Shown: piece by piece, positions 278 to 3,284 of the stretch | How the letters are laid out: every line of letters begins with the position of its first letter | Numbering within the stretch: the stretch's first letter is position 1 | Assembly: GCA_016223025.1 (NCBI GenBank) | Contig: JACRPU010000052.1 | Span: 1-53,918, forward strand | Origin: Nitrosomonadales bacterium | GTDB taxonomy: Bacteria; Pseudomonadota; Gammaproteobacteria; Burkholderiales; Gallionellaceae | DNA: 53,918 bases | Direction of reading: 5' to 3' | The notes under the pieces: generated by a model | Seen by the model: only the letters and a program-made list of their open reading frames with translations | Database searches by the model: none | What the model was told of the DNA's origin: nothing | Program-made: the position numbers and the translations under genes

Positions 278-559
278 TGGTGGGCCCAGTAGGACTTGAA
301 CCTACGACCAAAGGATTCGGCTTTGTGTAACTTTCGTTACTCGCTGGACTATGCCTTCACCGTAGCTTGCGCCTTAGGTGGGTGCCGTCTAGTCTCTACA
401 CCTTCCTTAATGCTTTCGAATCAAGGCTTGGCTCGGCATGGCCATATACATTGCTGCACTTAGGTTCTACCGAATTTGACACCATTCACCACACAGTTTC
501 CACGTGTAGTGCACATTTGCATATGAGTCCTCTGCTCTAACCAACTGAGCTATGGGCCC
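278..559 (-). tRNA. tRNA-Ile2 (CAU anticodon), interrupted by a group I intron
   Basis: The exons are 523-559 (5' half) and 281-317 (3' half), with CCA encoded at 278-280. Joined, they fold as a standard cloverleaf. The acceptor is GGGCCCA/TGGGCCC, the D-stem GCTC/GAGC, the anticodon stem GAGGA/TCCTT, the anticodon loop CTCATAA and the T-stem GTAGG/CCTAC. Anticodon CAU could mean elongator Met or Ile2. The acceptor and the TTTGGTC variable region resemble tRNA-Ile2, whose C34 is changed to lysidine by TilS to read AUA. The known Azoarcus group I intron sits in the same tRNA at the same place, after anticodon U36. A terminator follows, and a GATAAT -10-like box lies about 20 bp upstream. Confidence 0.93.
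318..522 (-). ncRNA. Group I self-splicing intron (IC3-like) in tRNA-Ile(CAU)
   Basis: This 205-nt insertion sits directly after the CAU anticodon. P1 forms between exon CAU and internal guide GUG with U·G at the splice site, closed by a GCAA loop. P2 is an 8-bp stem CACUACAC/GUGUGGUG topped by a GAAA loop. The core carries AAUUCGGUAGAACCUAAG and GUAGAGACUAGACGGCACC, both nearly identical to the Azoarcus tRNA-Ile ribozyme. A terminal stem GUAAC-GAAA-GUUAC is followed by ACAAAGCCG, which ends in the conserved omega-G. There is no homing endonuclease ORF. Length and core match the Azoarcus intron as I know it. Self-splicing is inferred from that family. Confidence 0.93.
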
Positions 560-1262
560 GTTGAAACTGAATTATCCGTGTGTGCTTCGCTGAAAGCCAC
601 CTTCTTGTTGTTCTTCAAGGCGTGCGGCAGTGTATTTCCTGGCCCGCTCACACGCTGTATGCCGCTATTTTACCGGGCTTGATGGGCTATCACCCGGTCG
701 CATAGATCAACCCCTGATGATCACGGCGCAGACCACCTCGAATGATGAATCGTCTGCGCCACGATCGTTCTCTCACATCCTGCGACACGTTACTGGTGGA
801 ACAACTAGCCATTCGACTAGGCGAGCCAACAACGCTCGCCAAGTCGCTGGTTATGGCGGAGCCAGCCGCTTGCGGGAGCGGGTGTGAGGCGGTCATTCCC
901 GCCCCGGAGGCTTCGCCACGCCGTGTCATGACCGCCACCCCCGTTCCCCTCACCTCAATCCTCTCCCGCAAGCGGGAGAGGAGGCGAACGAATCGCTGCG
1001 CGAGTTTCACTTGGCAACCACAAGACGGTTTCCAAGTGGTTGGCTACAGCCATTCGACCAGGCTGCAAGAAGCCGCAGCCAAGTACACCCGCAAGGGTAG
1101 GCAAATCTGTTACCGGCCAGAGGCTGGACAGAATTTGCACTAAGGGGCTGAAGCCCCAACAACACACGCAGGATGGTTATCCCAAATTGAGAGGGGTGCG
1201 GTATGCCCTCGCTGCGCGAGATTCACGTTAACGGTAAGCAACGACCCGCGAAAGCGGTTGCT
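560..1262. other. Gene-free stretch with short palindromes
   Basis: I see no supportable gene here. Short frames on both strands lack recognisable domains or good ribosome sites. The stretch holds the upstream region of the tRNA (GATAAT on the minus strand near 577), a 9-bp-arm palindrome GGCGCAGAC/GTCTGCGCC at 725-760, a near-perfect hairpin CCTCTCCCGC-AA-GCGGGAGAGG at 960-981, and the post-rpoD hairpin. The 960-981 hairpin belongs to the same broad family as the repeat inside hsdM at 20028-20070. Confidence 0.6.
1209..1231 (+). repeat. 23-bp dispersed repeat, copy 1
   Basis: The 23 bases TCGCTGCGCGAGATTCACG plus TTAA recur exactly, in reverse complement, at 52642-52664. Both copies are intergenic and lie near the two ends of the window. 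Function unknown. Confidence 0.75.

Positions 1263-1263
<1 letters not shown>
1236..1263 (-). terminator. Possible hairpin after rpoD
   Basis: AAGCAAC and GTTGCTT pair around a CGC-GAAA-GCG inner stem directly after the rpoD stop codon. No T-tract follows on the minus strand, so it is at best a weak or Rho-assisted terminator or an mRNA-end stabiliser. Confidence 0.4.
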
Positions 1264-3194
<1,931 letters not shown>

Positions 3195-3238
3195 TTGTAT
3201 TTCCAGTTCCCGTAAGTTCGTTGAGAGGGATACCACTG

Positions 3239-3277
3239 AAAAAAAGTTCCGGATTATACCCGATTTTCCGGAACTTT
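3239..3277 (-). terminator. Terminator/attenuator between dnaG and rpoD with a TATAAT in its loop
   Basis: On the minus strand 11-bp arms AAAGTTCCGGA/TCCGGAACTTT enclose a 13-nt loop and run into seven T residues (3239-3245). This is a good intrinsic terminator just after the dnaG stop. The loop contains a perfect TATAAT (3253-3258) preceded by GGG, which would be a -10 box for rpoD, though no convincing -35 is present. The element could therefore limit dnaG read-through while rpoD has its own start. Confidence 0.7.
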
Positions 3278-3284
3278 CCGCAGC

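Follow-up and report, generated by a model that had tools for sequence, protein, structure and literature searches.

A tRNA-Ile2(CAU) gene split by an Azoarcus-type group I intron in a Gallionellaceae genome, and signs that such introns may travel with DNA elements that break and replace this tRNA

The tRNA-Leu(UAA) introns of the cyanobacterial and plastid type are group IC3 introns. They belong to the same ribozyme class as the intron described here and also occur in the family and order of its host, whereas they interrupt another tRNA, are inserted inside the anticodon and use a different guide. A closer counterpart is the IC3 intron of the pre-tRNA-Ile(CAU) of Azoarcus sp. BH72, for which crystal structures are named in PMC3984707. 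In tRNA-dependent lysogeny (PMC10865867), recombination by an integrase takes place in the anticodon loop of a tRNA gene, at a core roughly 10 bp long; the broken host gene stays unrepaired, and a copy of that tRNA comes with the element. The published targets include tRNA-Ile2-CAT. Genomic islands in tRNA genes (Islander, PMC4383910) involve a tyrosine integrase, a split tRNA target and a displaced fragment. Our search of the open-licence literature found no paper stating that element-borne tRNAs contain introns, and none of the plasmid and phage records covered 80% of the query.

The window (the whole stretch of 53,918 nucleotides that was analysed) carries on its minus strand a tRNA-Ile2(CAU) gene with an encoded CCA, interrupted directly 3' of the anticodon by a group I intron (Table 1). 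The Rfam model RF00028 matched at 530-325 on that strand (53.0 bits, E 1e-10; gathering score 50), which was the single match at E <= 0.001 in the whole 2.75-Mb assembly. ARAGORN in its default mode, without introns, reported no tRNA in the window, while with introns enabled it returned 'ctcat-Intron-aatcc' with 205 nt between the exons, which when joined adopt a 77-nt tRNA(CAU) fold; the program labels the split gene Met(cat). The preliminary description of this DNA, a 205-nt group I intron behind CAU with exons and CCA intact, in a gene that tRNA finders may miss, is thus confirmed by the covariance-model score and by both ARAGORN runs. Its further points stand as well: the U.G at the 5' splice site is found in all 90 distinct introns aligned among the matches listed, the terminal (omega) G is present (and invariant in an alignment whose rows were pre-selected for G before AATCC), and an endonuclease frame is absent from the intron, where stop-free stretches reach at most 64 aa in all frames. 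The likeness of P1 and P2 to Azoarcus, also asserted there, holds for the fold and fails for the sequence (over the full alignment, identity extends to 151 of 207 columns). The split tRNA-Ile2 and its intron are real, and they are of an already known kind, the Azoarcus-type intron in tRNA-Ile2. A terminator-like hairpin follows the tRNA, one being found where 1.1 were expected in shuffles.

Table 1. Positions of the split tRNA gene, its intron and neighbouring features in the window.
Feature	Position	Strand	Evidence or remark
5' exon, tRNA-Ile2(CAU)	559-523	-	ARAGORN with introns; 3' end ...GGACTCAT
Group I intron, Azoarcus-type, 205 nt	522-318	-	RF00028, covariation, fold, comparison with Azoarcus type
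Intron parts: P1 with U.G, P2 with GAAA loop, P3-P9, P9.0, terminal G	522-318	-	
3' exon, tRNA-Ile2, with encoded CCA	317-278	-	ARAGORN with introns
Terminator-like hairpin and T run, 3' of tRNA	268-248	-	weak
22-nt leader motif GTAAAATAGCGGCATACAGCGT	652..673	-	common to leaders of three other intron-bearing loci
GGGTCGTT-GCT, just past rpoD stop	1237..1247	-	same start as sister-genome tRNA-Ile2
rpoD open frame, upstream of tRNA	1263..3284	-	TIGR02393, 388 bits, C37:1278-1988

Locus L217, which we take to be the Azoarcus intron sequence, agrees with the window in host tRNA, insertion site, length (205 nt), helices P1-P9, GAAA loops in L2 and L9 and guide GUG. The two differ at the aligned columns other than the identical ones counted above and in P9.0, which is swapped to C-G in the window; rpoD lies about 700 bp away in the window but close by in Azoarcus.

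When named genomes were scanned for a core like that of Azoarcus, at least 119 stretches were obtained, which together with L001, L003, L005 and L167 made up 123 regions. CTCAT/AATCC boundaries were present in 92 of these, and the 90 distinct introns among the matches listed became the rows of the alignment; the remaining 31 regions concerned other tRNAs, were cut off or fell outside the boundary rule. A 60-pair Azoarcus-type structure, which was drawn from the window and the Azoarcus fold and so leans towards both, had 91.8% of its cells paired across the 90 distinct introns among the matches listed, against 27-40% in a slid-partner control on the same alignment. In these introns 33 of the 60 pairs were changed on both sides (512 such cells versus 162 in shuffles), P3 was invariant, and so were four of the five P7 pairs, the fifth covarying between A-U and U-A. 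P9.0 covaried too, the window's C-G in place of G-C being common to L064 and L077. Pairing was weaker in the outer helices (P6a 66%, distal P8 65-76%), and the last P4 pair was unpaired in 48 of the 90 introns. The RNA fold of the window scored z = -2.5 against dinucleotide shuffles, 4 of 200 being as good. A group I core is indicated by P3-P8, P4-P6 and the guanosine site in P7, alongside the RF00028 score above cut-off, and the insertion behind CAU, the guide GUG, the GAAA loops L2 and L9 and a short P5 without P5abc place the intron in the Azoarcus-type IC3 group. As in Azoarcus, the two GAAA loops are accompanied by two CCUAAG receptor-like motifs, CCUAAG/UAUGG in P5 and CCUAAG/UACGG in P8 (one change from UAUGG); these may correspond to the pair of 11-nt tetraloop receptors that Azoarcus-type introns have in P5 and in P8.

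The surroundings of related genes bear on how the intron could have spread. Upstream of the intron-bearing gene, rpoD was found in 45 of 92 loci among the matches listed, and the stretch between the two frequently contains an orphan tRNA-Ile2 5' half. With a rule of at most 3 errors within 900 nt, and with 6 loci left out as too short, such a half was detected upstream in 39 of 84 intron-bearing loci among the matches listed, compared with 1 of 48 intronless controls. The controls were intronless tRNA-Ile2 genes of relatives (48 scored, 5 of 53 skipped), G024 being the single positive, and the Fisher p of 8e-9 for this contrast ignores kinship and sets the loci against unmatched genes from other taxa. 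One of the 39, L112, is doubtful, as it abuts masked bases. The distance from orphan half to intron was 162-256 nt in 37 of the 39 (317 in L077 and 347 in L112), and in 38 of the 39 the match to the gene stopped 2-8 nt after CTCAT, within the anticodon loop or immediately behind it; 17 of the 39 loci are titled Polynucleobacter and 22 are not.

Domain searches with Pfam, adopted because an integrase motif regex had overlooked those already known in L290 and L328, were run on 20 proteins from 13 intron-bearing loci and placed PF00589 near the intron-bearing gene in four of the 13 (L123, L066, L043 and L139), the last three having been flagged beforehand by motif search. The tyrosine-integrase genes of L123, L066 and L043 lie downstream of the intron-bearing gene, and that of L066 is followed two frames on by a Mob_Pre relaxase; in L064 and L071 the genes that then come downstream are dnaJ or dnaJ-dnaK, not an integrase. 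A compact element sits at tRNA-Ile2 in a genome of the same family (L290 6466-15051, G024:C73) and comprises an orphan 5' half, an intronless replacement tRNA-Ile2 of a different type, a DUF3987 protein and a tyrosine integrase (PF13356, PF00589) adjoining an orphan 3' half. At L289 9990-10561 (G053:C2), an HNH-type frame and then a PF00589 integrase come after an intron-bearing tRNA-Ile2, and upstream of that gene, beside rpoD, there is a 57-nt orphan of another tRNA-Ile2 that reaches tRNA position 57.

Several copies and fragments were present in five Polynucleobacter-like genomes, and in one genome the intact gene is preceded by two orphan 5' halves, one after the other. At L050, L054 and L072 the intron and 3' exon are kept, with foreign sequence replacing the 5' exon; L105 likewise has the intron and the 3' half of tRNA-Ile2, joined to foreign DNA, without a 5' half. 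L050, L054 and L105 are titled or placed as Polynucleobacter and L072 is a beta-proteobacterial bin. Rfam searches of these four copies gave RF00028 only, and the copies look like the far ends of integrated elements. On G547:C6, rpoD, an orphan 5' half and an intron-bearing tRNA-Ile2 (L294 3832-4356) are followed by intronless 3' halves in a row, in the same direction and over tens of kilobases (L295 5825-15840), as if elements had piled up.

For the window intron, which has no endonuclease, the preliminary description had allowed only vertical spread or reverse splicing. That restriction is not supported, given the excess of orphan halves over the controls and the tyrosine integrases beside some loci. 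Carriage at the DNA level is indicated: in many relatives the intron-bearing gene is a second, complete copy that lies a short way behind an orphan 5' half. The comparison points to mobile DNA, which breaks tRNA-Ile2 and brings a replacement copy, as a possible vehicle of such introns.

For the whole family of introns at this site, we consider it somewhat more likely than not that tyrosine-integrase elements break the anticodon loop of tRNA-Ile2 and supply a complete intron-bearing replacement. The integrase of the element would recombine in the anticodon loop of the resident gene, leaving its 5' half as an orphan beside rpoD and an orphan 3' half at the far end, and the complete intron-bearing tRNA-Ile2 of the element would rescue the host; if this is true, the intron needs no endonuclease, because it is carried by the replacement tRNA on a DNA element. 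This reading draws on the frequency of the orphan halves and their narrow break zone past CTCAT, on the recurrent rpoD neighbour, on the PF00589 integrases (one accompanied by Mob_Pre), on G024, where orphan halves, an intronless replacement and an integrase occur together, and on G053, with both an orphan and an integrase beside its intron-bearing tRNA-Ile2. It is weakened by the lack of an orphan half at 45 of the 84 loci, including that of the window, by the integrase domain being found in only four of 13 loci, three of them pre-flagged, by the G053 orphan, which extends to position 57 and not to the anticodon loop, and by a control set from other taxa with a p value blind to kinship.

A published intronless precedent exists in tRNA-dependent lysogeny (PMC10865867), which shares with the relatives' loci the break in the anticodon loop, the host tRNA left broken and the cognate tRNA supplied by the element. 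The published cases are actinobacterial phages whose tRNAs are not described as intron-bearing in the text consulted; the window shows neither orphan nor integrase. The Islander islands share with these loci the tyrosine integrase, the split tRNA and the displaced fragment, but restore the split gene from their own fragment, where the relatives' elements supply a whole second gene. How endonuclease-free bacterial tRNA introns move between species is an old question; the orphan-half pattern, in our view the most interesting outcome of the analysis, opens the route of spread to testing and connects a textbook ribozyme with tRNA-dependent integration. If the element reading is true, the marks of every integration would be a complete intron-bearing gene and two orphan halves, the 5' one before it and the 3' one at the far end.

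In the window itself these marks are faint. The rpoD frame, whose upper end at 3284 is the stop-to-stop limit with the true start not fixed, stops about 700 bp before the tRNA, and beyond the tRNA just 277 bp of the contig remain. An orphan 5' half, the mark of a replacement tRNA, was not found at 560-1266, where the best local score of 10 was matched by 131 of 500 shuffles, and the ACACAC direct repeats present in 24 other leaders are absent from the window. The GGGTCGTT-GCT stretch is a possible eroded orphan 5' half, although 85 of 1000 shuffles near rpoD scored as high; the sister-genome tRNA-Ile2 gene ends ACGACCCACCA. The GTAAAATAGCGGCATACAGCGT motif occurred in 3 of 82 loci at <= 5 mismatches and in none of 340 random stretches, whereas the alignment of the whole window leader did not exceed shuffles (top score 18, shuffled mean 17.5). 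That the window gene arrived inside an element-borne replacement tRNA-Ile2 is put forward only tentatively, below even chances and lower than for the introns of this site in general, since it has no significant orphan half, no ACACAC repeats and a contig end close downstream; in its favour are just the rpoD distance and the leader motif shared with three loci. We give an even chance to the combined reading that Azoarcus-type introns are passengers of elements and that the window gene is an old, eroded case whose orphan beside rpoD has decayed and whose element ends are lost at the contig break.

Old vertical inheritance in the betaproteobacteria with very many losses appears unlikely, though several features of the distribution agree with it. 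Among the matches listed, 84 of the 90 introns are from Betaproteobacteria, two from gammaproteobacteria and four are unplaced, and the introns cluster by genus in the tree, Methylotenera forming one group and Polynucleobacter (29 rows) needing 2 changes against 18.3 in shuffles; a single clade of the two Gallionellaceae introns is neither shown nor rejected (AU p 0.173). Against this inheritance, the introns are rare and scattered. A looser core pattern gave 26 matches in 22 of 399 genomes of the same order, eight of them labelled CAU and one more (L206) CAU by eye, and within Gallionellaceae the core pattern occurred in 5 of 158 genomes, at the CAU site in two, the window genome and G005. 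The intron of G053 lies in tRNA-Ile2 between U33 and C34, and in G038 and G050 the pattern is in tRNA-Leu. The one same-genus genome compared has an uninterrupted tRNA-Ile2 directly after rpoD, and the 90-row tree unites the window intron with three Burkholderiales bins (SH-aLRT 96), while the second Gallionellaceae intron falls outside that group. The intron-bearing tRNA-Ile2 of G005 is located elsewhere than after rpoD, where no tRNA-Ile2 was seen in that genome.

Ten further loci with an Azoarcus-like core (L041, L055, L086, L100, L103, L109, L116, L147, L152 and L154), mostly Rhodobacter-type alphaproteobacteria by title, carry the insertion in a gene that ARAGORN labels tRNA-Ile(UAU), at position 35.

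Two other proposals fare worse than vertical descent, and we hold each of them to be quite improbable. Entry of the intron RNA into tRNA-Ile2 by reverse splicing, followed by reverse transcription and recombination, would suit a CAU target that pairs with the intron guide and an intron with no endonuclease frame, and it is a route given in PMC3984707, where direct evidence is called lacking. It would place the intron in the resident gene and leave neither an orphan half nor a second copy, one of which is present in 39 of 84 loci, and the 3' exon kept at L050, L054 and L072 marks broken genes, not new target sites. In the other, equally improbable, proposal the intron shields the replacement tRNA: it would interrupt the attachment core that lies in the anticodon loop and so keep integrases off the gene. 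The intron does lie inside the stretch where orphan halves break, and PMC10865867 speculates on the element's own tRNA gene as attB; yet the G024 replacement has no intron, the intact gene of one genome follows two orphan 5' halves in succession, and the loss of the 5' exon at L050, L054 and L072 implies that in Polynucleobacter intron-bearing genes were themselves broken at CTCAT, which makes shielding less likely.

Whatever the route, the gene appears to be needed by its host. TilS makes lysidine at C34, and tRNA-Ile2 then reads AUA. The genome encodes TilS (169 bits, cut-off 93.6), and the split gene is of the tRNA-Ile2 (lysidine tRNA) kind in having a CAU anticodon and not being Met-type. 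The remaining readable CAU tRNAs are elongator-Met-type on C25 and initiator-Met-type on C135, types that we assigned from sequence. Neither blastn with two tRNA-Ile2 queries nor a pattern search found a second tRNA-Ile2 in the genome; the candidates they raised besides the split gene were a tRNA-Phe, other tRNAs and an elongator-Met-type gene. Since TilS is encoded, the other CAU tRNAs are Met-type and no second tRNA-Ile2 was found, the split gene is very probably the sole AUA reader of the genome, with the proviso that a second copy might escape a census of at least 30 tRNAs in an assembly of 137 contigs.

We are highly confident, for the ribozyme and tRNA part and leaving origin aside, that the primary tRNA-Ile2(CAU) transcript carries an Azoarcus-type IC3 ribozyme after the anticodon and would be spliced and then given lysidine by TilS. 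Position, fold, covariation, intact exons, the presence of TilS and the search result for further tRNA-Ile2 genes were observed directly; from knowledge of the family we infer splicing in the cell with GTP and Mg2+. The intron guide GUG would pair with exon CAU, the splice site being marked by the U.G pair. The 5' splice site would be attacked by a bound guanosine, and exon 1 would then attack after the terminal G, joining the exons into a normal anticodon loop, CUCAUAA. In the mature tRNA, C34 would be converted to lysidine by TilS, allowing AUA decoding. A decayed intron or tRNA pseudogene, to which several non-canonical cells in the outer helices might point, is highly implausible given intact exons and CCA, a conserved catalytic core and the only tRNA-Ile2 found in a genome whose AUA decoding requires one.

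Annotation can miss intron-bearing replacement tRNAs, as the window gene in default mode and a tRNA-Lys-like gene of a phage warn. Beside its integrase, Gordonia phage Daredevil (NC_048021.1, L328 1774-2703) carries a tRNA-Lys(UUU)-like gene that is missing from the annotation. A 238-nt insert with a group I-like core interrupts this gene, and RF00028 gave no match there at E <= 0.01. In PMC10865867, Daredevil is said to lack its own tRNA and clear plaques are reported; such plaques fit a missing or non-functional tRNA, so a working intron is not claimed there. Viral contigs yielded 10 stretches with an Ile2-type core and 106 with a looser core, of which ARAGORN labelled eight CAU and assigned no tRNA to 39, some being chance pattern matches. 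The genome to which the window belongs also has a pair of similar tRNA 3' fragments on C79, about 4.7 kb from each other (G000:C79, L296; 8691-8719 and 13357-13385); considered as tRNA-Ile2 copies, they proved on reading not to be Ile2-like. Both end GGGGAGCCA, and they may mark another integration site.
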